64,000 nucleotides of DNA from Isoetes taiwanensis (taxonomy: Eukaryota > Streptophyta > Lycopodiopsida > Isoetales > Isoetaceae): contig JAJEKV010000008.1 in assembly GCA_021234155.1 (NCBI GenBank), forward strand, positions 18,032,042 through 18,096,041, given 5' to 3'. Below, in pieces: positions 3,144-60,109 of the stretch. Both the position numbers and the translations under genes were made by a program. Below the pieces are notes generated by a model. The model saw nothing but the letters and a program-made list of their open reading frames with translations. It ran no database searches and was not told the DNA's origin. Numbering within the stretch: the first letter of the stretch is position 1; each line of letters starts with the position of its first letter.

Positions 3144-3181
3144 TAGGCGCGTCAGTATACGAAAAACCTCACACGCGCCAG
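3144..3181. promoter_or_regulatory. Degenerate GGCGCG / CGCGCC half-sites upstream of the acidic gene
   Basis: TAGGCGCGTCAG at 3144-3155 and CACACGCGCCAG at 3169-3181 are oppositely oriented. They resemble halves of the CACGCCWGGCGTG palindrome found upstream of minus-strand units at 42-55 kb. They lie about 120-160 bp upstream of the acidic protein's ATG. A regulatory role is inferred from position only. Confidence 0.25.
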
Positions 3182-38585: not shown

Positions 38586-39960
38586 TTATGTTTTTGCATG
38601 AGAATTGACATAGGTATTTGCCATTAGCACATAGGCTGGAGCGTAATCAGGGTCTAGAAGGGTAACCCAATGAAAGCAGTGTCTTGCAAGTTCTACATGG
38701 CCGTAATTGTGACAGGCACTGAGTAAAGATGTCCATCCACTAATATTGGGTTCGGAAGAACATCGAAGAAAATCTTCCGCCTCAGCAAGATAACCTACAT
38801 GACCTAGAAGATCAACCAAACAGGTATAGTGAGTGCTGCTTGGCGTTATGCCATAGTAAGAGTTCATAGATTTAAAATACCAGCATCCCTTATCAACTAG
38901 CCCCACATGATTGCAAGCTACAAGAATATTGGTAAATGACACCTCATCTGGTTCTATGTTCTTCACCTGCATCATTTCAAAGCATTCTATGGCAAGACAA
39001 CTTTTCCCATGCTGTGCATAACCTGGAATCATAGTTCCCCATAACATTATATTTCTCCTTGGCAATCGATTGAATACTATAGCTGCCATCTCAAGGTTTC
39101 CACTTTTGGCATATATGTCGACCAAAGTACTACCTATATCAACATCAAATTGAAGGCTAGTTCTAATAATTTGCTCATAATCAGCTTTCCGTGCACCGTG
39201 GCTCCTATGTTACCATAGGCTTTTAAAGTGCCCAAATATGTATCTAAGTCTGGAAATAGAGCCTCCTTTTCCATCTGTTCAAAAAGTTCAAGTGCATAAA
39301 GGGCTTCTCCGTGTTGAACAAGTCCCATAATCATAGAACCCCATGACACAACATCATGATTTGGGAAGCACTCAAACACTTTGTAAGCCTCTTCCAGGCT
39401 CCCACAACTTATATACATACTAATAAGATTGGTCCCCACAATAATATATGATTTAAGTTCCATCTCTATGATCTAATTATGTATTAACCTGCCTTGATGT
39501 CTGGCATCTAGAGTGGCACATGCTTTGACTATGCTTGAAAATGCAATATCAGTTGAATCTATTCCTTCACTTTGCATTTCTTCGAAGCAATCTAAAGCCT
39601 TTACGCATTCCCCATTTTCCATCAATCAATTTGTCAAAGAGAGAGCGTGCCTCCTCTACCCCCCCACACATTTTGCATACATGTCAAACAGAGTACTTCC
39701 AACGGATGCATCTGATTGAAGTCCACTTTTAATGATCTGACCATGAATTAGCCTACCATAACTTATGGTTCCCATGTTACTACATGCCTTCAAGGCAGCC
39801 AAAAAAGTGATTCCTTCTCCATGTTGCGCATATTCTCCAATCATTATACTCCAGGAACCAAAAACATATGCAATGGCCCAAAACTGCTTCAATATCTTTG
39901 AAAGTCGATACCAGTAGGCTCTGTCCAATGCCATTTATCTTGCTTCGCAGATTGCTTCTT
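38586..39960 (-). pseudogene. PLS-type pentatricopeptide repeat (PPR) gene remnant
   Basis: PPR proteins bind organellar RNA, and PLS members usually direct C-to-U editing. Typical repeats are visible: AALKACSNMGTISYGRLIHG, VGSTLFDMYAKC (39.66-39.85 kb), ALDCFEEMQSEGIDSTDIAF, VGTNLISMYISCGSLEEAYK, VFECFPNHDVVSWGSMI (39.3-39.45 kb), then after a frameshift near 39.17 kb VDIYAKSGNLEMAAIVFNRL and SSTHYTCLVDLLGHVGYLAE (38.6-39.1 kb). In-frame stops are TAG 39656-39658, TGA 39626-39628 and TAG 39473-39475. The C-terminal E and DYW domains are absent or unrecognisable. The repeat style, with KACSN-type linkers and DLLG endings, is what makes me think of ferns. Confidence 0.85.
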
Positions 39961-41038: not shown

Positions 41039-41483
41039 GTTAGCTTGTTAAATCTTAATTTTATGAAATGGGGTGCTTTGAGATTGCATTATAATATCGT
41101 AAGACTGCATTAGAATACTCTGCAAAAAGCATATCAAATAAATAGAAACCATCATCCAATTAAATTGGGATTATGTCAACTCCAAAATCATGCCAACCTG
41201 CTGTTGTCTTCTAGGGGGTTTTTGTTTTTTTTAATCTTTTTTTTTGGACTTGATAAATAACATAAGGTTGCGATTCACGTGTGACGTTTCACATGCAAAT
41301 TGAAATATGCAAAAATGAAGAGCAAGTTGCTAAGATAGATGAGACCAAAATTGAAGAGCATTTAGATGAAAATATTAGGTTTGATAATAACAGATTGCAT
41401 TATTTGCGAGGCAATTGCAGACTCGAAATTATCGATACATGGCACAAATATCATACAAAAATATTATATATTCCAATAAAACA

Positions 41484-42109
41484 TTAAGGGATCAATCCAT
41501 GTTTTTCCACGTATTTAACAAGGTGTGGTTCCATGTCAGCCGTTCTATCCAGTTCTGGGTATGAATCTAACACTTCACCCACCGTCATCCCCATAGCCAA
41601 ATTATTCATAATAGACACAAACTTCACCAGAAAATCATCTGTCGCAAAATTTTTTGGATCGTAAGATGGTGGATTTAGGGCCTGTGTTTGATTGTAGAAG
41701 CATTTGAGAGCATCATCATCCACTATGATTATATCATCCTTATTCTCGATACCAAGCTCGTCCATCATGTTACTCAAGTGTTTGATGAAGATAGGCTTGC
41801 CTGTTGGATCCTTGGAATTAGTGTTTGTTCTGATCCCAAAAGGTCAACCAATGTCTATGCATTTCCCCCGGTGCCTTCAAAGTATCCTTGATGTTCTTTA
41901 GTTCCATGGATGACCAAATACCAACTCGAAATAACCTGAATGCCTCATTTAGCATCTCCTTCAAGTGCGGCCGCGGATAGATCCACTTGGTGTTTGATTC
42001 TATTGGTGTCTGATGAAATTGATCTCTAGCCACTTTATTTTTCAGAAAAGTCTTGCAAAGGACTCCGTTTAGGTCGAACACCACAACCTTCTTAGAAACG
42101 CAATGCAAG
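41484..42109 (-). pseudogene. FCP1/NIF-like HAD phosphatase (copy 2), one frameshift
   Basis: All four HAD motifs can be read: I, VVVFDLNGVLC (about 42.05-42.09 kb); II, RVGIWSSMEL (about 41.90-41.93 kb); III, KPIFIKHLSN (about 41.77-41.80 kb); IV, IIIVDDDALKCF (about 41.70-41.74 kb). As in copy 1, motif I has DxN instead of DxD, a substitution shared by both copies and therefore not a random lesion. A 1-nt frameshift near 41.825 kb separates motifs II and III. Sequence before 42109 reads GATATTTCAG, a plausible 3' splice site, so an upstream exon is likely. The protein would be a phosphoprotein phosphatase or a pseudo-phosphatase. Stop TAA at 41484-41486. Confidence 0.7.
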
Positions 42110-42164
42110 CTGAAATATCAAACATGTATCTGGTCAGCACGATATGATCACACAAACAATACAA

Positions 42165-42301
42165 ACGCGCCAGGCATGATTTGAGTTAGTCAACCAAATC
42201 GCGCTGGGCGTGATTTACTGTGACAACGAAATATAATCAAAGCACGCTTGGCGCGATTTAATTCAAAGCTAATATAAATTAAATCACGCGTGGCGCGATT
42301 T
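42165..42301. promoter_or_regulatory. Cluster of CACGCC/GGCGTG-type palindromes upstream of the HAD gene
   Basis: Four related sites: ACGCGCCAGGCATGAT (42165), TCGCGCTGGGCGTGATTT (42199), GCACGCTTGGCGCGATTT (42242) and ATCACGCGTGGCGCGATTT (42283). Each is a degenerate form of CACGCCWGGCGTG followed by ATTT. They lie 56-190 bp upstream of the first HAD exon seen. Function unknown. Confidence 0.55.
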
Positions 42302-44327
42302 CGTATGCAAGGCCATACCTATCATCTTGAGTTGGCCACTTAATTAGGCGTCATTCTCCCCTTCGCCACCCTTAATCTCCGTGCTCTTTCCATTTGTTAG
42401 AATTGTTATTTTCTATTAGTTCATCTCGTCCTTGAATCGATATTATTTTAATATTGATTTGGCAAACACGTGAATCACTAGAAATGCGGGTTGCCAATGG
42501 CCCCTTCACTTTCAGTTGCCCTATCAATTAGATCCTTGTTAACCTGTGAATCTACTTTATTGTTGCTTGCATCACCAGCAAGGGAGGCAAGGATAGTCCC
42601 TAAGTTCGCCTTCATCACATTACTTTGAGTGAGCGGTTTAGCAGCCATTTGGTCATTGCTTTCCTTATCAGGCTGCGGATTACTAGTTCCCTCACCAGAA
42701 CCATCGTCCACTTTTGAATTGGACAAGTCTACGAGACTTTTGATTGCTGATGATTTCAGGTTGCCATAAGGGCCTTTAGGAGATTTGGCAAGCACATGCA
42801 TGAGGAATGGTTCAAGAAAGTCTTTAGCCTGCTCATCACTCACAAAGCAGTGACATCTTCTAACACCCATAAGAGCCTCTCGAGCAATATAACCTCCAAC
42901 ATGAAGCTCCAAACAGATTGTATCAATTGGAGCAAATGCCTCGACGAGGTAAGCAGCCATAGACGGGGGAAATCCATTTTTATTTAAGGGGCCCTTCTCC
43001 TTAGTTTGTAGCTCGTACTTGATTTCACCACTTAGGAGGGGGTCCCGATCCTCATCCTCTTCTGACTCATCCTGTTCCTGATCCTGATCTTGATCCGTAT
43101 GATAGAATATAGTTCTTAAGTCTGGATCATCTAGAAGAAAACATTCCCATGCACTGCTATTGTCACCCTTGGCCTTAGCAATATCATATTCCTCGTCTGA
43201 CAGCATGGCTATCATAATAAAGATCACATGTGTCATCTTCCGTTCTGTTCACAGCTCATTATCCTTAACATCATATATTAGGCATCCCTCCCTAATAACT
43301 TTGAGGCACTTCAGATCATGAGCAGCGGATAGTGCATGCAGATGTGACTCACCAGAAGGACAACCGATGACAATAGTGAAGGACCTCTTAGTTGTCAATC
43401 CTATACAGCTGGTAAAGAAGCTGTTGTAGTCCTTCTGGTTCATGCCCATATCTCCTCTCCCACCCCTGCTATCCAACACAAAGAGTGATATGTTTTTAAG
43501 GCAAGAAGTTGATTCTGGCAAGAGACCTTTGTATCCAATGGAGACTGAATATTGGACAGTTTCTTCTTCTCCAGTAATCTTCTTCACAAGGGCCACTTTT
43601 CTTCTCAGCTCGGCCAGTACCTTAGTTGGTAGAGTCTCCTTATGTTTTGCATTTTTAGCCTTCCAATTCTTTAGGAAGTCCTTTGACCAGAATACAAACT
43701 TCTTGATGTCATCATTACTGACCTTGTATTTGTCCAGCAATCCAATTTCAGATAATGCCACATCCCCCGATAGCCTTTGTAACTCAGCTCCTACAGCTGA
43801 CTTCATTGTACGTACATCCTTCACATGGCTGCAGCACTCAATGAAGGACATCCTATCCTTAGTGAAAGCACTCTTCTTGTATAAGGCTTCCTTCTTTAAG
43901 CACTGGTCTAAAACCCAAATGGTCTCAGCGTCGTCTAGCCCCTGAGTCTTTCTCATCTCTATCACATTCAAGTCAAAGATGCTTACATCAACAGGAGGCA
44001 CCCTACCCATAGTATCTGGCAGCTTCCTTTGTGCATAAGTGTCCCAAAATTCATTCCACTTTTGCCATACTGCCTCCTTACAAAAGACAATCTTATACGA
44101 GTCTGTTAGACCTGACCTGCTAGATGAGCTTTCAGAAGGATCTGCAATGTCATCACCACCTTTTTTCTTTGATTTTCTTGCAGTTTTCTTCTTCTCCTGT
44201 ATAATTGTCTACGACAGAGTCCACTCCAGCAGCTTGAATGCCTCAGACTTTGACCTGTCTGGTGGGTAATGGGCAGCCATATTCCACCCACTGTTGATGG
44301 GCGTGGCGCAGTTGCTCCACGTATGGA

Positions 44328-44651
44328 CTGCAATAGTACAGACATTGAATCAGTATCATAGAATAGAAACACGCCGGGCGCGATTTGAATAGAAAAGATC
44401 AACAGGAAAATCACGCCTAGCGTGAAATGAATTAAGCTACTAATGCAATTCACGCCAGGCGTGCTTTCAAATCAATTGAATTCACGCCAGACGTGCTTTC
44501 AAATCAAACCAATTCATGCTAGGCGTGCTTTAACAATTCACGCCTGGCGTGAATTGGTTTGATTTGAAAGCTGCGCCGGCGTGAATTCAATTGATGAAAG
44601 CTGCGCTGGCGTGAATAATTAAAATGTTAACATCCTAATGCAGTTAATTAC
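44328..44651 (-). other. Predicted intron of the DGQH gene
   Basis: On the minus strand the boundary CAAAAG/GTAATT at 44652/44651 and CTATTGCAG/TCC at 44328/44327 fit plant GT-AG sites. Joining keeps a plausible frame (AAA AGT CCA TAC, giving KSPYVEQL). The intron is 324 bp, and more than half of it is the palindromic hairpin described separately. Confidence 0.5.
44369..44617. repeat. Palindrome array forming a long hairpin (CACGCCWGGCGTG family)
   Basis: Eight copies of the CACGCC-N-GGCGTG motif lie at 44369, 44411, 44449, 44482, 44513, 44537, 44571 and 44602 (approximate). The block 44446-44531 is the inverted complement of 44535-44617 with few mismatches and a three-base loop. For example, CAAACCAATTCATGCTAGGC on the left pairs with the region CGCCTGGCGTGAATTGGTTTG on the right. 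So individual palindromes sit inside one larger palindrome, able to form an approximately 85-bp stem in RNA. Confidence 0.85.
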
Positions 44652-45838
44652 CTTTTGTATAGAAATGTCTTCCCCATTTCATTCAAAGTTGCACTAATCT
44701 CAGCCAAATCTGCAGGTGAAGTATTGGCATCCAAGAGACGACACCTCCTATACGCATAGTGATTGTAGAACACGCTTTTGCCTGTTTGTTACGCGCCACC
44801 GATGAGGGCCTTTTGTGCCTCAGCGAGAATGTTGCCCGTCGATGATGACGAATTTAATGTTATCATTTAACATTAACTCCTCGAAGTTAATCCCACACAA
44901 GCCGGGCTTGTTCGAGATCATATCCCCAAGGTAACACATCCATTGGCATAGGCATTTGACACGGATTACTAATCATGCTCGAACAATCTCCATGGCATGT
45001 CTTTGGATCATATCTTACGCTAACATAAATGGGGCTTGGTGAGCGGATGAGGGACTTCACATGGATCTGAAAAGTTTCCTTAAGACCCAATGGATAATGG
45101 TCGAGTACTTATTGACTTGTTCATGGCCTCTAGTTGGGCCACCGGTTCATTCATTCTCAAAAGCGAAGCCTCCATGCCTTCGACAAGCTGCAGGGGAAGA
45201 ACATTCTTCCCTAGATTTAGGACCCTCCTAGAAGCTTTCAAGTCAGCTAATTCCCTAGCTTGCTCCAAATAGTGACTTGGTGTCGGTTTATTGAACATGC
45301 CTCTACGCACTGCTGTAACCCCTTGACAAATAGATATTGGCGTAACTGCTACATTGGTGGGCCAGCCATACTTAAAACATGTCTCACCGTTCACATCTGT
45401 CCTCATGAACATATCCTTGTATCACGGTAGCTCTACGGTGGAGTAAGTCCGAAAGCGGATCTTTCTTCGCTTATGTGTAATTTCCAAGAGCAATTTGCAG
45501 TTGGTGTCGTCCTCTTCCTCACAAGAGATTAGGATCCCTTGTTTGGTCATCTCTTTAATGCTTCTTTTTCCTCGAGAAGAGAGTTAAGTCGAGCTTGCCA
45601 TTTGTCTTGGCAAGGTCAGCGTACTCCCTCGGCACCCTCGTCCATTTCCTCTTCGTATGGTGGTCGTTGGTTGCTATAAGAATCGGCCCTTCATCATCTA
45701 AGGTGAGATCATATGGTACTGCATCTGGGTCGTCTACCCTTGGTTTCTTACCAGGAATAGACCCCGAATTATTGGGGGTTTTCTTCCTCTTGGGTTAGAG
45801 GATGAACATTTTTTAGAGTATTTTTCAGAACAAGAGAT

Positions 45839-45892
45839 CATGCTTGGCGTGCATTTAAACCTAAATTAGTATAATTCACGCTTGGCGTGTTC
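45839..45892. promoter_or_regulatory. Two CACGCTTGGCGTG-type palindromes upstream of the DGQH gene
   Basis: CATGCTTGGCGTGCATTT (45839-45856) and ATTCACGCTTGGCGTGTTCG (45873-45892) lie 30-83 bp upstream of the proposed ATG at 45807-45809. The second differs from CACGCCTGGCGTG at one base. Position suggests an operator or core-promoter element, by inference only. Confidence 0.5.
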
Positions 45893-46349
45893 GTAGCTCT
45901 TACTGTGTACCATGCTATGCTTGAATTTGAAGCTAAATTAGTATGCATCCACATTTTAAGCTACGTACCCTTTATGAATCCATATTTCACACTACTTAAC
46001 CTCATTGAACACTGCTATCTCTAACTGTCAAACCTCCAGCTCTACATAGGTATGTACCCCTATGTTAAAAACTAATAAGAACTATATTCTATAAAAACAG
46101 AGCAAAATTATGTTCTAAAAAACAGACAATCAGAGCATTAACTGAAGGTAATAATTTAAATTCATGCAAAGTATAATAACTCAAAAATTCATGCAAAGCA
46201 TATTAACTGAAGGCAAGGAAATAACTCAAATTCATGCAATGCATAATACTCTCCACACACTTTGTATTCTGTGGCAAATTAAATACCTTGAATAGGGGTC
46301 TGATCAACGTCCTCGAAACTCTCATACAACTCAGTATATGGCATTCTCG
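45893..46349. other. No gene; short dispersed duplications
   Basis: TTCATGCAAAGYATAWTAACT recurs at about 46163, 46191 and 46232 (ATTCATGCAATGCATAAT). No open frame of note. Confidence 0.5.
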
Positions 46350-48230
46350 CACGGCAGGGAGCCCCGGTTGATGCGATCTAGCCTACGGCTTTTCGGGGGC
46401 AGTATCAAAAAGCCAGCGAAGTCCCAAAGCGACAATACAAGTCCTGCCGATGATTAGAACGCCTTCAATCGGTGCCCACGGTGTAAAGATATGGTCAATC
46501 GTTGAGTGGCGGGGTCTAAAAACACGCCTATGTGAGGGCTCACACATCTCGCCGCCTCCGCCGGTGGGTCAACTTTCTTTTCGAGAATGCTAGCCAAGAG
46601 TTTGGCAAAATCGGCCCGACCATGATCGTCAGGTGGTGGTAGGGCGGTGTGGGTCGCCTCTACCATGAATGGGAACAACCGCTTGTGGTCCATTGTCGGG
46701 AGAGACCTTCTGCAATGCTCATTGAGCGAGGGGTAGTGAGGACCGGCACAAGTGGCGCCCCGCCCCATTTGAGTAACTTCGGCACGCATACCATCGAGGG
46801 TTTTGCCTTCCCATTAGCCGGCCGTTGCGGGCCCTCCTCAACATCCTCCTCCACGAGAACCAATGGGGGCCATCCGGCGTAGGGGGTATGGGCATCTGGC
46901 GTCCCTGGCGGGTCATAAAGCTGCTTTCAAAATCTCATTCCATTGGCGAGGGTGTGATGTCCCTGTGGCTGGGCTGGCCTTGAAGCACTCTGGCGTAAAA
47001 GGTTCGAGGATGGATGAGTGTCAGCCGGGCGAACATCTCCCACGATGCACGGCAAGGTGCTGCGCCTTTGTCTCCTTCGGATGGGCGATGCGTATATTAA
47101 CTTGGCGGGTGCTGGATCGAGAATGTGCGGAGCTGCGCTTGCGTTCTTTACTACGCATCAAACCATCGATTCTTGGCGGGAATATTTGGCGACCACGGCG
47201 GCGGCGGGGCTGCCAAAGCACATCCCATTTGCATCGTAATAGCGAAGTCGGTGAGGTGCATCTGTTTGCTCTAGTGTGGAGGTCATGGGAATGCGGGAGC
47301 GTCCATGAGCATCTCGGCGTAGTCCTACTGCACGCTCATAATCTAGTCTCAAGCGGGGGCGAGGGGTGGCATAGTGGGGGTACGGCGGCTTGCCAAACCG
47401 GTCAAATAAAGTGGGAGGTGATAAAATCGACCTCCTCATCCCGACTTGTTTGTGCCCACAGGAAGCGGTGATGAGATGCATATCTTGCGCGCCTTCTGAG
47501 CACATAGTCCACCACACTAGACCCTCCTCCCCGATTGTCACATGCATGTGCACTTAGAATCGGACCCCGCGGATGAGCCATTGCAAATTATCAAGTCAAA
47601 AATACCACATAGCGAGGAACAGCATGCATGCAAAGCGAGTGACACATTTGTCATCCGATCCTCGGGGCGAGGTTATGCTTGAGGGCGTAAAATTGCGGGA
47701 CATCGTCGGCCGAGGGGGTCAAGTCGCATGGGCTGCTCTACTCTGTCAGGTGCATTGAAATCTCCAAGAAGGACGACCCTACCCAAGCTGGCTGGGTGCT
47801 GGCTTTGTATGTCATCATATAGATGGACATACGGGTCCATCCTATCCGCATCGGGGTGGCTGCGATAGAAGGTGCTCTCTGCGTGAGGGAAATAACAGGC
47901 GACGAGGAAAAAGAGGGTTGCCCGGTATTATGCACCACGAACCCCACAGTACCGGTTGTGTGCATGCGTCTTACGGAAGGTAACCGAATTTGCCAAGGTT
48001 GTCCGGTGGTAGCAAGCCACTCCACCATGACCCCTCGGTCTGCAATGCATTATTGAAGGCAGAAATGTTGGTAACTGGCGGATCAGGTGCTTTTGTGTCC
48101 GGCATGCTCCCATGTCTCCTCCATGAGGAAGATGAGATCCATATCGCCACGCCCGCGGGTTGAGTCGGGTTTTGAGTTTCCTCGCCACCGCTTCCTCGGC
48201 CCCGTCGCCTCGACCGCCACGGTTTTAGAA
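46350..48230 (-). mobile_element. Non-L1 LINE, copy 3 (endonuclease and start of RT only)
   Basis: Minus-strand endonuclease sequence at 47.74-48.19 kb (HGGVACYHRTTLANSVTF, VVLLGDFNAPDRVEQP) and an RT N-terminal portion at 46.4-46.9 kb (LLKWGGAPLVPVLTTP) match copy 2 position by position. This copy extends further 5' than copy 2 (past CATGAGGAAGATGAGATCCA) but stops at the N-terminal RT region, without the 3' UTR or TTCTA tail, so its 3' part was lost by deletion or recombination. It is GC- and CpG-rich and frameshifted. It sits between the coiled-coil gene and the DGQH gene. Confidence 0.75.
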
Positions 48231-49090
48231 GACATCTCGAGTAAGCCTAGTAACGAGTCGTAAAGGTCGCTTCGGATAAAGCGCTCAGCTGCTCAAAGAA
48301 ATAGCTTTTTCTACCATGCGAGAAATAGTGTTTTCTACACCGCGCGAGAGAAATTTGAATTTCAAGAAAATAAAATATGCGGTTTTGAAATATTCTTGAC
48401 ACATAAAAAAATAATAATGACAAAAGATAAAAAAAAAACTAAAAAAAAGAACCCGGTCCAGCCGACTTCTTTCATTGAGTTTTAAAAACCAATCTACCAT
48501 GTTCTTTCATTGATTACATTTATCCCCCTAAGCGTAGTTAACCTAAGCTTTCTTCTAACTTTCGAATTTTTCCCGACCGTCTGAGTTTCCATAGCGCCTG
48601 TGATTTCGAGAACTCGAATCAGCTTCTCAAGAATGGCTACAGAATTCTGGTACTCATCTCATTCCTATAGCTTGAACATTAATTTCCAATAGTAGACGTC
48701 TGAATAGGCAATTGTCTGCAGTGTCGAAGATGAATGTTTCATGTTAACTACAAATCAGAAAAGGAAAGTAGGATTATGCAAGATCGACTCCATCGATCCG
48801 ACTGCAAACTGTCATGGAATTCGCCGGGGATAAATGCGTCGAGAGTTCTGATGATTAAGCTATTTGCGCTATGGATGAAGCTTTACCTCGTAGACACCCC
48901 GGTGGGGATACGGTTGGAGAAAGTGTTGGAACATTTGTTGCATAGCCGAGAAATCGGTTAAAAAAGATATGTAACATGTATTACATTGTAGAAATATAGA
49001 AGTAGACAAAATTTGTTGTATTAATTGGAAAAAGTTTACAATTATATATAATCTGGATAAATCAGACATACAAAATCCCGCATTGTTTTT
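48231..49090. other. No supported gene
   Basis: An inverted pair CTCAAAGAAATAGCTTTTTCTACC / GAGAAATAGTGTTTTCTACA occurs as a direct repeat at about 48293 and 48320. Otherwise nothing. Confidence 0.4.
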
Positions 49091-49114
49091 CAAGCCACGG
49101 TCCTCTTTGTTTCA

Positions 49115-49708
49115 CCGCCCCAGTCCTCATCGAGTAGCTTGGCTATCGATACTCCCATTTCCATTTCCATTTCTATTTCTATTTCCATTCCCAAGCTACA
49201 GCTCCACCTCCCTCGCCTGCTCCACCTCCACCTCCTGCTCCTCCTCCTGCTCCACCTCTTGGTCATGCTCCATTGGTTGAGGCATTGCATTGTATGCCGC
49301 CTACGGTAGTGGTTCGTGTTGAGGCATCTGGGCATAGAGGCTAGCCACTAAGAAACGAAGCTCCTCATTTTGAATCTCGAGCTGACGGTTGCGAGATTCA
49401 CTCTCGATCAATGCATGTACAGCATGATCGAAGTGTTCAGCTAATACGGCCAGCCTCCGTGTGATTGCAAGGGCCTCAGAGCCCAGATTTAAAATGGCCC
49501 TGCGCTCTGCATTCATCATCATCACTTGATCCATGTACTACAGGGGTTGCAAGATTTGTGCTCCAGCCGGACTGGTGCTCGGATGCGGTTCAATTGGACT
49601 GGAGCTTGGATCCGCAATGGGAGCTGGGCTGTGTGATTGCTGCTCCAAATGGACGTAACCCACTATTGCATCTTCATCACCAACCGGGTGATTAATGTAG
49701 CTTGGCAT
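49115..49708 (-). pseudogene. Coiled-coil, Glu/Gln-rich protein interrupted by three TAG codons
   Basis: The ATG at 49706-49708 opens MPSYINHPVGDEDAIVGYVH, a Ser/Pro-rich linker, then a helical, coiled-coil-like region (NAERRAILNLGSEALAITRR ... ESRNRQLEIQNEELRFLVAS) and a Glu/Gln-rich tail (EVEQEEEQEVEVEQ). The frame is open for about 170 codons except for TAG at 49538-49540, 49301-49303 and 49196-49198. Each would read as Gln in a Gln-rich neighbourhood (for example HEPLP-stop-AAYNAMPQP). A frame change in the GGAAAT microsatellite leads to IAKLLDEDWGGETKR and a TGA near 49095. Helical C-terminal regions of this type occur in plant transposon-encoded and trihelix/Myb-like DNA-binding proteins, but no DNA-binding domain is visible. 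Confidence 0.5.
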
Positions 49709-49738
49709 CTATCAATAGGAAGTTAGAGGAGTATCAGC

Positions 49739-49758
49739 ATTCACGCCTGGCGTGTTAT
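49739..49758. promoter_or_regulatory. Perfect CACGCCTGGCGTG palindrome upstream of the coiled-coil gene
   Basis: ATTCACGCCTGGCGTGTTAT. The 13-bp core is a perfect palindrome around a central T. It is about 30 bp upstream of the ATG at 49708, the same offset as at the DGQH gene. Confidence 0.55.
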
Positions 49759-50050
49759 AAACAAGATTGCATATTAAACGGGAGCAAATCATTGAAACGG
49801 GAGCTAAAGGAATATTCCTCAAAGATTCCCATTTTTTTCCAAAAAAGGAGCTAAAATGAGGTAAAAATTTTATTTTGGTCATAAATTTGCATTTTGACCC
49901 CCCCAAAATCACTCATTTTTTTGTGCAAAGAGAAAATTGACTATGTCAAAGTGACACTTTTCCTAACAGTTAGAATTTACCTGAAGTGTGTTTTTAGAGA
50001 AAACCACTAATTTACGTGTACGTCCTACACAACATTTTGTTAGCTTGGAT

Positions 50051-50660
50051 TGTATTCCAGAAAAGGTACTTTTAGGTTACAATGTGTCCTTTTTTAACAA
50101 TATAATATTTCAAAGTACCAAAATTGTATTCCGGAATACACTTTTGCTATTCGAGGATAACATAATTGTATCCCAAAATACACTTTTGCTTTTCTTAAAA
50201 GTCAAAGTGTATTCCAGAATACACTTTTGGTTTTGCTCGAAATCCGAAGTGTATTCCGGAATACACTTTTGCTGTACAAGTTTCTGAGAATCAACATTGA
50301 TCTTGCAATTTTCGAGGTTTTCCAGGTTTTCAGCATATTCAATGACCTTGTATTTTTTTTTTTTCAATTAATATGAATGACCTTGCGATTTTATTTGTTT
50401 CTTTTATGTGGGGATACAGGAACGTCGTTCTAAATACTGAAGGGATTAGCGAAAGGGAAAAATAAACCAACAACAACTAGATTTTTTTTGGCATTGATGA
50501 CCTTTCATTTTTTTCATTTGTTTTGTGTGGATACAGGGTCATGGGTTTAAGAAATAAAGGGATATTGATATTTTTGTTTTTAAGTCAGGGATACTGGGTT
50601 TTGGTTCAAAACCATAAGTGGGAAATGTATTCCGGAATACACTTTGTATTCCGGAATACG
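50051..50660. repeat. Array of TGTATTCCGGAATACA palindromes
   Basis: The exact 16-bp palindrome occurs at about 50126, 50250 and 50627. Degenerate copies lie at 50051 (TGTATTCCAGAAAAG), 50167 (TGTATCCCAAAATACA), 50208 (TGTATTCCAGAATACA) and 50646 (TGTATTCCGGAATACG). Most are followed by CTTTTG. Two further eroded copies lie at 52534 (TGTATTCTGGAATAGC) and 52567 (CTATTCCGGAATAGC). The spacing is irregular, so this is an array of sites and not a simple tandem repeat. Confidence 0.8.
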
Positions 50661-53194
50661 TTTTGATGTTTTTTTTTCATGCCTTTGCTAAAGGCGATCA
50701 CTCTTTCTAGATCTCGGGCTACCATTTCTCACGGATCTTGGCCTTGGCATTGTTGCTGGCTACAGATTAAGCTATGGCGCAGCCTAAATAGTTTTCAAAG
50801 TTCGTTTTCAGTTTAGGGTTTTGCCGGTTTCGTTCAGTTCATGGATCATGGCTACAGAATGAGAGAGATGGGTTGGCGTGTACAGGGCGATTTTTTGAGA
50901 GCAAGTCACGATCATGAATGCATTGGGTGACCGGATTGAACTTTTCTTTTGTTAGAGGTTATGCAGATGGTCTCAAATGGTTTTGGTTGCATCGATTTAG
51001 AGGTTATGCAGATGGTCTCAAATGGGAGGGATGGTAGCTGGATATAAAATTTCTCAGGTACAATCCTTTGAAAGCACTAGATTAGCAGGCTTTTGGAATT
51101 CTGACATTGGTAGAAAAGTCTTGGAAGAAGAATTTTGTTTATATTCTGCTGTTGTGAACAGGTCATTTTCTTTAAAGAAAAGCTTTTGATTATCAGAGTC
51201 GAAAGCTTATGTTTGTGGTCCGGCTTTTATGATTACCCTCTGACTTTCATGCACTGATACGATTCTATGTGGTTAAGTAGATGTGTCAGATAAGGGTCTA
51301 ACAAGCTCTCACTTTGGCAAGTTAAAACGATGTTTTCTATGTAGACGAAATGCACAAGTTGTTCTTTAAGAGCTGTAACAGTAGATGGTACATGTGAATA
51401 CTTAAAGGCTAAAAAGCATGCATAAAAAATGCAGGAGCCTAGGCAGGCATAAAAGGTGTTGTGCTGCAGGCATGCAAGGTCCTTATTTTGCAGATAAAAG
51501 AGGTAAATATGAGTTTGTTTGAAGTTCAGGCGTGTTGATGTGAACTGAAAATAGGATGTCCTTACACCAGCTTGTGCAAACTGGGCTGCTACAAAGGTGC
51601 ATATAAATTCGTGGATTTGTGTTTCAGGTTCCATTCCAGAGCAAAGATGGAGAGATGCAGACTGAAAGACTAGGTGCCAAATGTTGCAGACCGTGTATTA
51701 CAATGTGCTTTTACATTTCACCAGTTGCAGAGTTAGACTGATAGTTATATGCTATGTTTTTTCATCACATTAAACCATATCAGCACATGAAGTGTTACAT
51801 ATGTCCTCTTGAATTTTACATATGTCCTCTTGAATTTTAAGCAAGTTGGCTGCATAGCTGCACACACTTGGCAAAGGCGTACCAAGTTTTATCTGCTTTA
51901 AGTTTACATCAGATTAAACCATTTCGTTTTATGCATGCATTGCTTATGAGGTGATCTTTACATATTCTGAATTTTAAGCGTGGCCTTGTTTATGTCCTTA
52001 AAGAGTAATGACATAGAGCTGCATGCTGATTGAGAAAGCAACATTTAATGGGAAAACCACTGTGGTGTAGGAAGATGGATTAATGTGGAATATTGCATTG
52101 CTTGGCACTTCGGTGCAAGAACTTAAGGCATTAAGGTATGTAGTTGATTTTGCGTGTATGTTTTGAGGGGTGTGGACCATTGGGCAAGCAATATGAGTGA
52201 TTCAAAAGGAAAAATGTCCAAGGATGCCAATGTTTGCAATTGACATGGGAAAAATTGGGATTGAGACTAAAAGATAATTACCAGACCATAGATGATGGAC
52301 GAATTGTACTAGGTGATATCTTGCATATGTTGATCTAGAAATTTTAAAACAGATATAGGGTATTAACATGAGAACGCAAGTACCATTTAATTCTTCTAGG
52401 CTTGATATGAATGGATAGTACAATGAAGGGATCAACTAAGGTTAACGTATGTCCTAATATGCTTTGTCTTGGTTAGTAAATGCAATATTTCTCCCTTATT
52501 TTGTAATTTTGGAAAAAATGACTACCACACTAATGTATTCTGGAATAGCATAAGAGTGCAAGGTCCTATTCCGGAATAGCGGTTGAGTGTAGCATAGGAA
52601 TTCTGAAAACACTGATTAGGTTTTTTTTAAGACAGATTTCGCATGCTCTGGTGCTTTTACTTCATTTCACACTAGAAAACTTTATTTTTAAAACTTTTTC
52701 GAACCTTGCACTTTTTGTTTGGTGCTCGTAATTTAACTTGCAATCTATTACAAAATCACCTTTTTTTTTGTCTTGTGTTCACAATTCACCAGTGGCAAGA
52801 GAAATAAACGTTGTTAAAGTAGCATATATAAAATCGTAATCACCATCTTTGTTTTTGAGCGTAACCCCTAAAACCGCTATTTCAAGTGGTTGACATGTTG
52901 ACTTATTGGTTTGTTTTTTTTTTTTTTGGGGGTAAAATAGCACACATTAAATTGTAATCACCATGATTTTTGGCCAAAACCCCAAAAGGGGCCATTTCAA
53001 ATAATTAATATGATTTTAGAAGGGAATCTTCAAGCGGGAGTCTTTGCAACCTCCGTTTAATATCTAACCTTGTTTATATTTATTTATTTATAAACTTAGA
53101 AACTAAGAACGCGGCCGCGGTTTAAATTAAAAGTTGAAAGTAAGGATAAAAATTGTTTACTTTCGGTATAAAACCGGGTATATAGGAAAAACTA
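50661..53194. other. No supported gene
   Basis: AT-rich DNA. AGAGGTTATGCAGATGGTCTC is duplicated at about 50956 and 50998, and ACATATGTCCTCTTGAATTTTA is duplicated in tandem near 51796-51840. Minus-strand frames at 51.2-51.6 kb look like chance. Confidence 0.45.
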
Positions 53195-53344
53195 TTCGGC
53201 GTGCATTCGTGCGTGAGAGAGAAAAAAAAAAAAAATGGATAGATAGATAAGTAAATAGACAAAGGCAAGGCAATTATTTACTTTGCGGCTTTTATCTATT
53301 TACTTATCTATCTCTGATCCTTTTTCTACTCGAATGCACGCCGA
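53195..53344. repeat. Foldback element of about 150 bp
   Basis: The outer arms TTCGGCGTGCATTCG (53195-53209) and CGAATGCACGCCGA (53331-53344), and the inner arms AGATAGATAAGTAAATAGA (53241-53259) and TCTATTTACTTATCTATCT (53295-53313), are perfect or near-perfect inverted complements. The outer arms contain the half-site GGCGTG/CACGCC, linking this to the palindrome family. Confidence 0.8.
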
Positions 53345-53385
53345 GCGAGTATATATATTCAAGGCTAAGGTTAGCATGTATTCGG

Positions 53386-53425
53386 AACATGCTTAGCGTG
53401 TATTGGAACACGCTTAGCATGTTTC
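53386..53425. repeat. Inverted pair of CATGCTTAGCGTG palindrome variants
   Basis: ACATGCTTAGCGTGT, a 6-bp spacer, then ACACGCTTAGCATGT: each half is nearly self-palindromic, and the halves are inverted relative to each other with one mismatch. These are variants of CACGCCWGGCGTG. Confidence 0.6.
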
Positions 53426-53854
53426 AAATATTATCTTTGAGATTTTTCTAATGCTTTCTACTATTCATAAAGAAACTTGCATGTACCTTGACATGATTAA
53501 TTCAGGAAGAGAAACTCAAGAATTTACTCGAAACAAAAGAAGCGGATGAAGTTTATAAAAACCTATTACGTTTTCATAAACATCGTGCCTTTCCTCCCTC
53601 GAGCAAATGCATAAGCTTGTCTTCTTGGATTAAACACCGCCATTGACATGCGACTTAAAACTAAAATGAAAACTAACCTTGAATTACGAGGGCTTTTGGA
53701 TTGAAGAGCGGAGCACTTTGCTTTTGGTTTTATTTAGAGGCTTTTAGATTCGAAGGCCCAGGAGTCCTCTGCTTTTGGTTTTAATTCGAGCCTCAGATGT
53801 CCTCTGCTACCAATGTCCTGCCTTTCACCGGATGCTTTCTGAGAACAAAAGCGG

Positions 53855-53880
53855 AATCTATTCTATTCTATTCTATTTTA
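53855..53880. repeat. (TTCTA)n tract, solitary
   Basis: AATCTATTCTATTCTATTCTA at 53855. Same microsatellite as the tail of the non-L1 LINE, but without its 3' UTR. It could be a tail-only insertion or a target site. Confidence 0.5.
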
Positions 53881-54026
53881 GTAAGTTAGGAATTGCCGAA
53901 ATCAAAGAAGCATCTAACATTGCTGAAAAGAAATCTGCTCACCAAGATTTTAGGAGGGCGGATCAAAACACAGCAGAAGCGCAACCGACAAATCATATGA
54001 AGAAAGGAAGAAAATGTAGGAACTTT

Positions 54027-55292
54027 GAAAGCGTGAAATGGATTTATATAGGCATAATTAGAAATAAATGAGCGTGAATAATTGATTACTTGAATTAACA
54101 CGCCTGGCGTACGGTCTTCCTGCCAAACATAACATGTATATGGTATATATGGAGAATATTGCATTTCATGCAATAAATTCTCACGGCATTTTATTCCATT
54201 TATTGCATTCGAAAAAACAGAATTTAGAAATTTTATATAGGCTAAATAAAAAATGATTTTAAAGGCTAAATTATCAAGACTAAAGTAAAAATGATTTGTA
54301 GTGTTGGGGATTTTTTTTAGGTCGTATCGGAAAATTTCCTATGGTTACTTTGATGAATCAGAGATCTCATGTGGTTGATTTATAGTGTTCCCCAGACTTT
54401 ATTGAGACAAATGCAGAGACAAAATTTTATAGATACAAAAATGCTTGGAGAAAATAGTTTGATTTCATTCAAAAAAATTTATGTACAGATGCCCGAAAGG
54501 ATACAAAAATGCTTGGAGAAAACTGTTTGATTTCTTTCAAAAATTGATATATGCACAGATGCCCGAAGTCTTGTAGCGGATGCGAGAAGGCTTTTTCTGA
54601 TTTACAAAAAAATGCGGGAGGCGTGACCGAAACCACAGAAAAAAAAAAAAAAAAAGGGGGCCCAGGATTTGCATCACTCTTCTTCCATGTCTGCAAGAAA
54701 GAAGAAAGAAAGGTGTTAGAAAAGAAAGAAGAAAGAAAGGTGCAAAAAAAAAAAGGCAGACATGCAAACTTGATTCATCTCGCAACCATTCCAAAAATTG
54801 GTTGACTTCTCGACCTTCTTAGAATCTTCTTCTTCCTCCTCCTCCTCCAACTCTTCTTGGGGAGATTTCATTCTGTTTTTGGTCGAGTCAACCCCGGAAG
54901 GCGAGGCGGTCGAATTCTTGTGAATCACGATCGTCCAACTCCTCCTCTTCCTCCTCTTCATCCTCCGAATCGGAATCGAGGAGAATTGCGACAAAAAAAT
55001 CAATTTGGGGGAAGGGGAATTGATGGACTTCTTCAACCCGGCGTCTCTTTGAGGAGACCTCGGGTTCTTCATGAAGGTCATTTGCTGAGGCCGAGCAGCT
55101 TTATGGCGGGCAGAGAAAAAAAATTTGGAAGGAATGGAGGTCTTGAGAGCGTGAACCGGATTTATATTGGGTTAATTAGAAATTAGCGTGAATAAATAAT
55201 TGCCTCAAATAACCGCCTTGCGTCTGAAATTCCCTTGACTATATCATCTAGGGTATATTATTATGGAGAATAAATTCTCACGGCTACCTTAT
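54027..55292 (-). repeat. Pair of homologous 5'-flank segments (54027-54175 and 55147-55292)
   Basis: Both contain, in order, GAGCGTGAA-type sequence, GGATTTATATWGG, TAATTAGAAAT, AGCGTGAATAA, a CACGCCTGGCGT site (54100, good) or CCGCCTTGCGT (55205, eroded), and GGAGAATA followed by AATTCTCACGGC. The second copy lies directly upstream of the acidic gene at 54.66-55.1 kb, so the first is probably the promoter of a decayed sister gene to its left. Confidence 0.65.
54663..55105 (-). CDS. Acidic protein with short intron (second acidic gene), frameshifted
   Basis: From about 55105 the minus strand reads HEEPEVSSKRRRVEEVHQF, FPQIDFFVAILLDSDSEDEE and EEEELDDRDSQEFDRLAF, then a frame change near 54.89 kb into KNRMKSPQEELEEEEEEEDS and KKVEKSTNFWNG. 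The segment 54691-54769 begins GTTTGCAT and ends TTTCTTGCAG with a T-rich middle, a good intron of 79 bp, followed by TWKKSDANPG. Like the gene at 2.4-3.0 kb it combines a Glu/Asp run, a basic patch and a short early intron, but the sequences are not alignable by eye outside these features. No domain recognised. Confidence 0.35.
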
Positions 55293-55547
55293 CAGTTATA
55301 TGTCTTTTCGTATTTTGAAAGCTAAATTTTCGATAATTAAATTTGGATATATTTATATAAATGTCATTTCCTTGTTGTTGCCACGAAAATTCTTGTTTTA
55401 AATGATTTCGTTTATATCCATTGTTATTATTATATTAAACATATTTCCAAGGAATTTCTTGCTTTTTAAAAAATTTGATTTACCTCTATATATTCCATAA
55501 ATGTACGTACTTTTCTTATATTATGGTGTTTTAATATTTCCTACTCA

Positions 55548-58398
55548 TTGACTAAAAAAGGTGCAATTTGCCTAGGTCAATGGTGCCTCTCAAACTCAAG
55601 ATGGTGTCAACATATTGAAAAGAGCAATTTCAATGAAAAAGCACATCCTAGCAAGAATGTTGAAGAAAAACAATTAGTCCTCCATAGTAGGGTGCAATGG
55701 AGGAACAAGAAGGTGAGAATCATGCACAAGTGGAACAAGGAAATAGTAGGCCAAGGAGTCATTGTGCTAGCAGATCCTGATCAAGCTGTTAATGATGAAA
55801 GGCTAGGGGAAGACAATATTGGTATTGCAATTTCTTTGTTGGAAGACAACTGGAAAGCTAAAGGTTTGGGTGACAAGGAATGTTTTGGTTGTGTCAAGCA
55901 ATTGGAGGTTCCTTATATCATGGCATGGCCTATAAGTAGTGTTCAATTTGTGGAGGATTATATTTTTCCAGAGCCTGAGGTTGTTGGGGACAATGATTGT
56001 CTTGATATTGATCCATTGGCAGTTGGAACTCTAAACCTAGGCAAAAGGGGAGAAGTATCAGTTGCCAGACATTATCCTAGCAAAAGAGCCAAGTTGATTC
56101 GTGATACCAAACGTGAGACAATGGTGAAGGTTAGGGGCTCAGATTGTTATTGGAGTGGTTGTATACAATTCTTTACAATAGAACAATTGGTGGAAGCAAG
56201 AGCCACTTTTCAAGAGTATAATGTTGACGAGAGGAGGACCTACATGTACACACTCTTCGAGCATGCACTTCAGGATGAAAGAAACCCAAACAGAAAAAGA
56301 CACCCTTTGCTAGGCAAATGGATATGTAAAAAAGCATGGCAGAATATCCATGCAATTCTAACTTCTTTATGGCATAATTGACAAAAAAAACAGGCAGAGG
56401 GGAACAGTATTGCTTTACATGGAAATAATGGTTTGTTGAGACCAACAACTAGGATCTTGGCTGCTAGGGAGATATTTGAAAAATATATTGATTTCAATGC
56501 AGAGTCTATGCCACACAAAATCAGAAGGGATGAAAAGGGAAGAGCAGTTGGTGAGAAAAGGTTACCATCACATTGTACTCAAAAGAGTATTTTGGAAGAA
56601 GTGAATTCCCCACTTCGAAAATTAGGAATTCTTCCAATATCCCAGCCTAGCTTTAGTAGGCTATGGAAGAAGCATTTCAATCATGTCACCATAGCAACTT
56701 CAAACAACTTTGCAAAGTGCAATTTATGTGCTAAGTTGAAGGAGACTTTTGATAAGACTGTGCAACCTAGTCAAAGGGCTAGGATAAGGGAGCATATGAA
56801 GGACCATATGACTGATCAACTATCATGTAGATCATGTTATTGGATGTGGAGGATTTTATCTGCATTTGAACCTAATAACTATTTATGTATTATACATGAC
56901 AAGATGGACCAGCAAAAGACTTGTCTTCCACAATTCAAGTACATACCAAAGTCATGTGGAAGATCATACCCTTTACAGATATCAATGACTGGGGCAATCC
57001 TGCATGGGCACACTCAAACCTACTATGGCCATTTTAATTTGGAGTTGTGGAGTGATGGTCCAGATTTTCATATTGGGAGTATCATGAGGTGTTTGAGAAA
57101 CTATGAAAATGGATACAATGGTCACCTCCAGGACCCTACACTAGCCAGGCACTACATAGAGCATTGTTAGATGGAAACCCTAACAATATTGAAAAGTTCA
57201 GCAAGGCAAGGTTTAGGAAGCATGGGTCTAGTGAACTTCACGTGCTAGAGCTCAAGATCTACCCAAAAGGTTCCTCTTGCAACTTGATAATTGTGCTGGC
57301 CAAAATAAGAATAGGTGGATGTTTTCTTTCCTATCCTACTTAACAGCTGTGATGCATTATTTGGCAAATATAGTTGTATACTGAAGCAGCAGACAGTGAC
57401 CAACTTTCCTAGGCTAATGGAAATCTTGCATGAATGCACTACTCCAAACCCTATAGCTTCTCTCATAGAAGAAGTGCCCGATTGGAAGAGCTTTGTGGAT
57501 AGTTATACATTGGATCTTGAAGGTCATTCCAGGCCTCTGCCAGTTCACTTTTGGGTGAGAGGTGGGATTCCAATCTTCCAATGGAAGATGAGACCTTGAG
57601 GAGGAGGAGTGGAGAGGAGGGAGGAAATATGGGCGAGAGATGAGAATGGCAAGCCTATGATACCTCCAGGTCAACCAAAAGCTCTAAAACCTACTAAAGA
57701 AGTGAAGCAATTGGGATTGACTAAGGAAGGAATCCAGGACTATATAAAGCATTGGCAAACTAATCCCGATGACACCAACCGTGCCTTGGTGGCTTACTGG
57801 AAGAAGGTGATTAACTTTGTTGGGGGAGATAGACACATCCTCGGATGAATTGAAAGAAGGGTGGTTGCCTAAAACTAGGTGGAAGACCTTAGCGGTCTTT
57901 GAGGATGTTGATGACATCAATTAGTAGCATTAAGTAAAGCAATATGCTCCTCCTCCTTCGACAAACACTATGTTGGTCCTAAGAACAATAGGCCAAAGTT
58001 TCTAGGCATGGATGCTTATGAACCTTCCACCGACTTGGAATGCCACCAATTTGTGGTAGTAAAGCCGCCAGATTTAGATACATATCAGTGGTGGTGGGGT
58101 TCACCATCTCGATATTTGCAAAGAAGAAGGTAATATTAACTTCAACCATGTGGGGTAGAATGGTGGTGTTCCAAGACATCAGTTGACCCCCATTATCCGG
58201 ATAAAGAAAGGTACTCGGATTGTTGGACAAAGAGATGGAGGAGAAATCCAAGTGATCCCGATCTTTGGCTAGACTATGAAAGTGTTTTGTACTCATGGAC
58301 TCCAAACACTATTCCAGCTAGAAATGCGAGAATTACAATACCTCAGGATGTCAGGAAGAAGGCTATGATATCATTAGGGGTGCTTGAAGAAAATTGAA
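55548..58398 (+). pseudogene. DUF7869-like large protein with DNCAGQNKNR motif
   Basis: The plus strand reads through about 540 codons in one phase with one TGA (56379-56381): RIMHKWNKEIVGQGVIVLAD, a WSGCIQFFTIEQLVEARATF segment, TRILAAREIFEKYIDF, a KCNLCAKLKETFDKT cysteine pair and MTGAILHGHTQTYYGHFNLE. After a frame change near 57.15 kb come ALLDGNPNNIEKFSKARFRK, then, after another, LLQLDNCAGQNKNRWMFSFL (about 57.27-57.34 kb). Further pieces are DWKSFVDSYTLDLEGHSRPL and VHFWVRGGIPIFQWKM (57.4-57.6 kb), LTKEGIQDYIKHWQTNPDDT and, last, WLDYESVLYSWTPNTIP ending at 58398. The DN..GQNKNR signature is the hallmark of a multicopy eukaryotic family often annotated DUF7869. A transposase-like RNase H fold is plausible but unproven. 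Confidence 0.6.
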
Positions 58399-60109
58399 TA
58401 ACTATGTAAATTTCTTTCATCATGTTTTTATAATATGGTGCTATATTGTAAAATATTGACTATTTTGTAAATAATATGAGATTACATTTTCATACTTTTG
58501 AGGTGGTTTGTGTGAATTTGAATATGCTATAAAAAATATACAATATGAAATTTGTCCCAAAATTGAGTGATGGTTTAGATGGCCTATAGTTTTATTGCCA
58601 TTGTTTGACAGCTTCCAATGCTTGGCAAAATGCCGAAATAAAAATCGTGGAATATAAAAGCTTTACCTATACTCTATCTTCGTGCATTTCAAAGAGAGAC
58701 CTTAGATTGTTTCATTGAATAACTTTCTTAAATTAGAATTTTGGAGTTATCGACATTTATGCTTCTACAAAACCCAGTGAAAGAAAGCAACATTGAAAAG
58801 ACATGACAATATAGCTCCAGAACCAAATGACAGACAATTGATTAGCCCTGGAGACTTCAAAAACACCCCCTTGTGGGATCAAAATTGCAGCTCTTGAAAT
58901 AGCACTAGGATGCTTAGAAATCTTTCAAGCTTCAATACTTGAATAATCCAGCATTTTCTGCCCTGGTATTTGGTAAATCACACAAGCTTCAGTACTTGTA
59001 TGGCTATTCAAGCATTGCAGTTTTTGAAATAGCACCAGGATGCTTAGAATTCTCTTCAAGCTTCAGTACTTGAATAATCCAGCACCTTCTGCCCTGCCAT
59101 ACAACCTGTTATACCCTTCATTCAAACCACCAATGTTTCCAAATTATTTAAAACGGACTTCTGTCAAACATTATATGGAAATTTCTGATCATTCAATTGT
59201 GAATCTGGACCTTTCTTACTAGTAAGAAAGAGCGGGAGGAAGGAGATATGGGACGGAAATGGCAAACAATTCTCAGATACAGTATAAATACAAGAACTGC
59301 AAGATTTAACGAGGCTAAAAAACTGCTTTATTCAAGATCTCACCGTAATCTGCGAGATCAAGAACCGCCTTGACGATGCTTCCAACACTGTAAATCGTGA
59401 TGAATGATGCAGATCCAAGAATCGTTAACCTACCCCTGCTAGCCGCTGACCCGATTCAAACAAATTTAGATGCTGCTACAGTGCCAGGAGGGCAAGGATG
59501 AGGGCGGCCTCTCCCTGCCACCGCCGCCGTAGTCGCAGGCACGATGAAACGGGCCCCGCTTCATTTTTTTTTCCACTAATGACCTCCAAAAGTACGATAT
59601 TCCTATCTTGGTTGCTGGAATTTCAATAGTGGATTAACTCGATGATACAATTATTGTCTAGTCAGTGGCTTCGCCTGCCCCTTAAACAGATTTGAAGCAT
59701 CTTTTTTATCAGATGATTTCTCTTGCAATAATCAACTAAATCTAGCATGCCGAAAAAGAGGAAAAAAATGGACGAAAGAAAAAATGGATGGAAGCGCTTC
59801 TTAGTATATATAGAACAATGTAGAATATTGGATAATCAGTCTATATGAGCCAAACGTGGCTTGTACACACATATAGATAAGTACCTACAAAAGGACATGT
59901 CTCTATACTAGAGGACATGTCTCTTCACATGACTAGGATTGCCACCTAGGCGTGGTCACATGGCACTTGCCATGTCATTACGTGAGCTTCAATCTGCCCT
60001 GCTTAACAGTTTCTAGAGCTTCTTCTGCCGCTCCACATGACGATGGCATTGAATCTACTTGCATGCTTAACTTCGATCGATACTTCGGGGTGCTTCCTTT
60101 GGTGCTTCC
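58399..60109. repeat. Intergenic, with an approximately 80-bp direct repeat
   Basis: The unit GAAATAGCACYAGGATGCTTAG ... TTCARTACTTGAATAATCCAGCA ... TTCTGCCCTG occurs at about 58895-58967 and 59026-59098. A related middle phrase (AGCTTCAGTACTTG) lies between them. No gene is supported in this tract. Confidence 0.6.

Follow-up and report, generated by a model that had tools for sequence, protein, structure and literature searches.

The stretch analysed here (the window) comprises 64,000 nucleotides of the Isoetes taiwanensis genome (64 kb; contig JAJEKV010000008.1, positions 18,032,042 to 18,096,041), in which a 13-bp palindrome, CACGCCWGGCGTG, recurs beside a series of genes encoding unrelated proteins. 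The palindrome belongs to the make-up of a large DNA transposon, present in many copies, that occupies window positions 41147-58575. Because it is integral to the transposon and is altered, or different, in sister families, an element protein that controls or protects the element's DNA probably docks there.

The plus strand of the element carries a broken, transposase-like gene (55479..58396, its extent taken from copy alignments) whose product matches DUF7869 (PF25273). This match falls below the curated cut-off in the window open reading frame (ORF; E 0.0042) and in the copy C96 (E 4.9e-5), and above it in the sister-family copy C67 (E 3.6e-13; 50 bits vs 26) and in L057, a member of a third family (173.5 bits). 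DUF7869 was the sole Pfam match in the transposase-like ORFs scanned, and the position of the protein in the element, together with its motifs LLLQLDN and GHTHEDVD, suggests that it is the transposase. The domain is hugely expanded genome-wide (the best 150 of 9910 first-look candidates all exceed the cut-off), and a literature search on DUF7869 returned no papers. The minus strand contains a NIF/HAD phosphatase-like gene, the DGQH gene and a coiled-coil ORF. The phosphatase-like coding region (41487..42109) has a broken frame in the window and matches PF03031 (E 2.9e-7; 5.9e-9 in a sister copy); its C-terminal part (41487-41843) gives a weak DUF433 match below the cut-off (E 2.7e-4) and includes a conserved stretch, EVLDSYPELDRT, for which the sister family has a counterpart. 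The DGQH gene consists of an N-terminal exon (44652..45809), which in the copies reads ...PMPADVLPWDM...FVIIDGQHSVEAQKAL, a motif common to the sister family, and a C-terminal exon (42478..44327), whose reading frame in the window meets a stop codon (43249-43251) and breaks near 44208. The N-terminal part carries a DGQH motif and resembles DndB (PF14072, E 7.1e-4 on copy A), while the C-terminal exon partly resembles the motif I region of methyltransferases. Some partial loci retain an open DGQH frame.

With up to two mismatches, CACGCCWGGCGTG matches the window 14 times, against a mean of 0.29 and a maximum of 2 in 100 shuffled sequences; genome-wide there are 1771 exact sites and a single match to the reversed control pattern. 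The repetition noted in a preliminary description of this DNA is thus real and far exceeds chance. That description placed the palindrome upstream of unrelated minus-strand coding units. Its four main groups and the site at 54099 are real, two of the groups proving to be intronic rather than upstream (GT donor and AG acceptor read from sequence), and the site is indeed common to these genes, which are united by belonging to one transposon. All sites are given on the plus strand. Degenerate or hybrid sites at 42166..42297 (starts 42166, 42243 and 42285), compared in a 10-sequence alignment, lie inside the phosphatase-gene intron (42110-42322). An inverted array with a period of 32 bp at 44370..44616 (starts 44370, 44412, 44451, 44483, 44515 and 44539) fills the DGQH-gene intron (44328-44651). 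Two further sites (45839..45889; starts 45839 and 45877) precede the DGQH start, one at 49742..49754 precedes the coiled-coil ORF (ATG near 49708), and one with a single mismatch lies at 54099..54111, with a TATA-like box some 50 bp away (54042-54050, read on the minus strand); the remaining match is a stray at 21280. Those at 44451, 44539 and 49742 are exact. Clusters with the 32-bp spacing recur among the 50 genomic sites listed (100 rows, both strands). As an RNA hairpin, the 13-bp palindrome would leave only a stem of 5 bp and a loop of 3 bases.

The same places are occupied in other copies. Alignment maps counterparts in C80 of the sites at 42166, 42243, 42285, 44539, 45839, 45877, 49742 (exact there too), 54099 and 55213, and in C96, where the phosphatase intron is matched in part, of those at 42243, 44412-44571, 45839, 45877, 53337, 53388 and 55213; only one of the 11 palindrome sites in C80 has no site at the equivalent window position. 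Related sites had also been proposed at 3144-3181, 53.2-53.4 kb and 55205, none of which contains a match to CACGCCWGGCGTG at two mismatches or fewer in the window. Through C96 and C80, the copies near 53.3 and 55.2 kb can be recognised as decayed: the pair at 53337..53400, which adjoins a TATATATA stretch, corresponds to sites with two mismatches in C96 (7078 and 7123, matching window 53337 and 53388), and the site at 55213..55224, near the start of an acidic ORF, corresponds to C80 9037 (one mismatch) and C96 8974 (two). The 3144-3181 site lies outside the element and found no such support. An imperfect inverted repeat with TATCTATTTACTTATCTATC arms spans 53196-53353, adjoined by a decayed palindrome, GCACGCCGAGCG, and the TATATATA stretch; this region is possibly the transposase promoter.

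The array region is itself repetitive, giving 157 matches from the best 40 of 728 candidates. A miniature inverted-repeat transposable element (MITE), scattered irrespective of genes, could produce such a picture, given that the array is an inverted repeat and that the alignments of two loci (L002 and L003) end within it. Among the 11 other loci examined (L002-L012), however, nine align to the window at ~84-95% on both flanks of the array, so that a MITE inserted into the introns is ruled out, and the element ends are located elsewhere. The palindromes stand at matching places in other copies and are thus not an inserted MITE; the preliminary description had named a MITE origin as the outcome that would overturn its proposal, and we regard the idea in any form as very nearly dismissed.

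Longer stretches of four copies jointly extend the alignment across 41147-57694, apart from two gaps where the window copy has insertions (near 46320-48162 and at 49760-53074). On the left, all 39 other scored copies begin within window 41134-41147, and 35 begin precisely at 41146-41147; on the right, 38 of 40 other matches end at 58567, one ends three bases earlier and one is an internal fragment. These edges coincide with inverted repeats of about 30 bp, AACCATCATYCAATTAAATTGGGATTATGT, present in the window as a left repeat, AACCATCATCCAATTAAATTGGGATTATGT (41147..41176, plus strand), and a truncated right remnant, TGATGGTT (58568..58575, minus strand), the right repeats of L022-L024 being longer. 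A 4-bp target duplication, TAGA, precedes the left repeat (41143..41146) and follows the right one; the corresponding duplications are TGAG in C80, ATGA in C67, TATA in C112 and AATT at L057, of which TATA and AATT are less telling because they are self-complementary. A genome-wide search for the end pattern with up to two mismatches gave 1591 plus-strand and 1606 minus-strand matches, against none for the controls, and these ~3,200 matches include both the window family and its sister. Sharp copy edges, inverted repeats and 4-bp duplications identify the palindrome-bearing element as a DNA transposon, ~12.3 kb long in C80, with the inverted repeats and target duplication of a cut-and-paste element. 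Duplications of 4 bp are reported for Sola2 in the available text of PMC3627910; the feature is shared by the Isoetes element and is not exclusive to Sola. The interval at ~46320-48162, like that at 30-32 kb, is GC-rich and reads as LINE-like fragments, and PPR-like ORFs, as would suit a plant genome, were noted by eye at 38586-39934 on the minus strand.

A sister family provides an informative comparison. Its copies C67 and C112 have the phosphatase, DGQH and DUF7869 genes in the same order as the window family, with accessory proteins ~23-58% identical; the protein comparison of these two copies turned up nothing corresponding to the coiled-coil ORF. The transposase end retains ~80% DNA identity, and the remaining sister DNA cannot be aligned by blastn apart from one 175-bp match. 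The sister palindrome, CGCGCCWGGCGCG, has 1639 exact sites genome-wide (control, 1) and differs from CACGCCWGGCGTG by one base in each arm. At the second pair from the outside, 98 of 125 core sites in the window family, a set in which 12 loci had been picked because they carry an exact site, read A..T and none G..C, and nine of the 12 sister core sites read G..C and none A..T. The palindromes stand at matching places in two mapped copies of the window family and are changed in both arms in its sister, which upholds the earlier proposal that the genes of a single multi-gene element have a signal in common. About 1.6-1.8 kb into the element at L031 and L033 (C67 and C112), 42-bp palindrome repeats form an open frame that encodes KIAPGAISI repeats.

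The window also contains a third family, represented by a deletion derivative of a different DUF7869 transposon nested within the first (49760..53074; terminal inverted repeat AACAAG..., TATA flanks). It is to this nested element that the second palindrome of the window, TGTATTCCGGAATACA (also written AAGTGTATTCCGGAATACACTT), belongs, with arrays at 50125-50660 and no relation to CACGCCWGGCGTG. Two genomic elements, L056 and L057, chosen by open-frame length from the best 150 of the 9910 DUF7869 candidates, contain long open DUF7869 ORFs (987 and 857 aa) and arrays of the third-family palindrome with periods of 42 or 43 bp; one end of the nested element matches theirs at ~81% over 230-256 bp. 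Another locus, L058, has one copy of the core TATTCCGGAATA and encodes an N6_N4_Mtase domain (PF01555, E 2.1e-17; 64.2 bits vs a cut-off of 26.7). The third-family methyltransferase motifs are FSGSGTT (the SAM motif) and DLPYG. We read the L058 motif YVLGGNHSFKAR as ParB-like; a Pfam scan of L058 gave no match confirming a ParB-like part. N6_N4 methyltransferase domains are plentiful genome-wide: the best 150 of 1444 PF01555 candidates all exceed the cut-off, and 24 of these 150 lie within 15 kb of one of the 150 listed DUF7869 matches, 22 of them in divergent orientation, compared with three coincidences in five shifted controls.

These family differences bear on whether a host transcription factor might be reading the sites as ordinary promoter or enhancer elements. 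The TATA-like box ~50 bp from the 54099 site would suit such a role, yet site versions differ between sister families within one genome and the third family's palindrome is unrelated, and we consider host-factor binding improbable. The changed version in the sister family and the replaced palindrome in the third suggest instead that an element-encoded binding factor, as the preliminary description proposed, is the best explanation.

Part of the signal also lies at the left end. Just inside the left inverted repeat is a palindrome half-site (41184..41194, plus strand), usually AAAATCACGCC in the family and AAAATCATGCC in the window copy, which shows the same A/G difference between families as the full palindromes. 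Among 100 listed left ends (of 1230), the half-site base matches the family flank in 96 (p 3.8e-23): 41 combine a window-type flank with A, 55 a sister-type flank with G, and four are discordant. We also paired clusters of the window (CACG) and sister (CGCG) palindromes, drawn in each case from the first 50 sites listed, with half-site-bearing left ends up to 15 kb away. Such an end was found for nine of 24 CACG clusters, all nine of type A, and for 19 of 31 CGCG clusters, 18 of type G and one of type A.

In CACTA elements, subterminal repeats serve as assembly sites for the transposition complex. The palindromes might likewise be assembly sites bound by the transposase or by a TNPA-like helper, and the family-matched half-site ~8 bp inward of the left inverted repeat fits this. 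The arrays, however, occupy introns and intergenic DNA 1-9 kb into the element; no half-site occurs in the last 130 bp of the right end in the copies compared; and the inverted repeats differ between families by only one base, at the left end, against changes in both arms of the palindromes. We therefore regard such an assembly role as unlikely, if worth keeping in view. It is very unlikely that the arrays are a functionless product of neutral tandem-repeat expansion. Their unit number does differ among copies (a 331-bp query matches stretches of ~200-400 bp), but palindromic symmetry is preserved, one version recurs at separate places in each element, and the left-end half-site differs in step with the palindrome.

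The methyltransferase domain of the third family raises the possibility that element DNA is marked at the palindromes by an N4-cytosine or N6-adenine methyltransferase that the element itself encodes. In that family the accessory gene has an over-cut-off N6_N4_Mtase domain with FSGSGTT and DLPYG, and self-modification by transposons is a published idea, at least in the available text of PMC12477816. In the window family, by contrast, the methyltransferase part looks catalytically dead, because the places matching those motifs read, in our judgement, AFAPID... and LDSRGG..., which suggests that catalysis has been lost. PF01555 had no match in the window DGQH pieces, and the window family does not reach the N6_N4 methyltransferase cut-off. 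In shuffle tests, the DGQH C-terminal piece resembled the methyltransferase motif I part at z 3.9 (one of 300 shuffles as high), a weak similarity given the non-significant hhalign result, and the N-terminal piece resembled the ParB-like part at z 1.9 (17 of 300); for D1, the values were -0.6 against the motif IV part, no better than shuffled sequence, and 0.3 against the ParB-like part, and three controls gave 0.7, 0.3 and -1.1. A single-sequence AlphaFold model of the DGQH exon (43252-44208) had a pLDDT of 37.8 and was unusable. Because the window-family enzyme looks dead, we favour binding and anti-silencing over methylation, and consider a target-site role rather improbable.

Bacterial ParB-parS systems and DndB regulators combine clustered palindromic sites with a DGQH/GNH-type N-terminal motif. 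The Isoetes element resembles them in both respects and differs in being a eukaryotic transposon whose candidate ParB/DndB-like protein scores below the Pfam cut-off. A second precedent is offered by the VANDAL elements, which are Mutator-like. In Arabidopsis, the motifs bound by VANC proteins are described as forming tandem arrays in the VANB and VANC introns and upstream of VANA, and as differing by a base between subfamilies (PMC5735166); VANC proteins are reported to make the element that encodes them lose DNA methylation (PMC5735166, PMC10398659). To the extent that these accounts go, the likeness extends to arrays of a short motif, placed in accessory-gene introns and ahead of another gene, to subfamilies set apart by base changes, to variable array size and to diverging accessory proteins; intronic and upstream motif arrays in family-specific versions are what we find in Isoetes. 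VANDAL motifs are, on the same accounts, arrayed in one orientation, whereas the Isoetes sites are palindromic, and the Isoetes element has a DUF7869 gene, a NIF phosphatase and a DGQH gene. By architecture, the element also has a published relative. The available description of Ectocarpus Sola1-1_Ec32 gives a ParB-like and DNA-methyltransferase accessory gene opposite the transposase, and proposes that its product binds and modifies its own transposon, with no site named there (PMC12477816). As far as that description reaches, both are giant DNA transposons with an accessory gene opposite the transposase, and the third Isoetes family has a methyltransferase domain in that position with a motif that reads as ParB-like; the window family differs in that its methyltransferase part looks degenerate. 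Narrow literature searches returned no report of such family-specific palindrome arrays, and a search combining ParB, DGQHR and transposon gave nothing on topic.

We are now able to propose a mechanism. The DUF7869 transposon would encode a sequence-specific protein for which the palindrome arrays are the sites, and the binder would most likely be a dimer of the accessory DGQH protein, weakly DndB/ParB-like and with a degenerate methyltransferase-like part. Its binding would maintain the non-coding DNA of the element in an active or unsilenced state and would also regulate element genes, with protein and site co-evolving so that each family controls itself only, in VANC/VANDAL fashion. A dimeric, co-evolving binder fits because the arrays are non-coding and one version occurs at several places per element, and because the arms differ together, the left half-site is matched and the third family's palindrome is different. 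We assign the role of binder to the accessory protein, and that of its sites to the palindromes, by inference from the VANC and Sola1-1 reports combined, within the limits of the parts of those reports available. Overall, we lean towards the arrays being binding sites for an element-encoded dimeric regulator, likely DGQH, with VANC-like self-control and co-evolution of site and protein.

Several observations weigh against this proposal. The DndB score (19.2 bits vs 29.1) misses the cut-off for a ParB/DndB assignment, neither PF14072 (E <= 0.01) nor PF02195 (E <= 0.1) matched anywhere in genome-wide searches, hhalign among the accessory proteins of different families was not significant, and searches of PDB sequences found no credible match (best E 0.025, KIAA1496). 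In the window-family copies that span the entire first DGQH piece, the window's own apart, this piece has stops or frame changes. No half-site-bearing left end is listed within 15 kb of 15 of the 24 CACG clusters or 12 of the 31 CGCG clusters, and one CGCG cluster is paired with a type-A end. Of 12 exact CACG sites sampled, seven align to the element beyond the array, leaving four that align via array-like pieces only and one unaligned. Five other sister-type copies (6 kb read in each) contain 0, 0, 2, 4 and 2 half-sites of the form ATCGCGCC, and no recurrent perfect palindrome stood out among them. Finally, the left-end half-site could have a role in transposition instead.

More speculatively, a large group of plant DNA transposons may have taken over a prokaryote-type ParB-methyltransferase, paired each family's version of it with parS-like arrays particular to that family and, in some cases, let the enzyme decay to a binder, a second and independent invention of the VANC type that we put forward tentatively, as a possibility short of an even chance. 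Our analysis supplies candidate sites in the form of three palindromes from three related families in one genome, two of which differ by one base per arm, a difference that makes specificity and co-evolution testable by swaps of protein and site. If the proposed mechanism is correct, each family would mark or unsilence its own copies alone through a protein-array complex, and a VANC-like system would exist in another kind of transposon.

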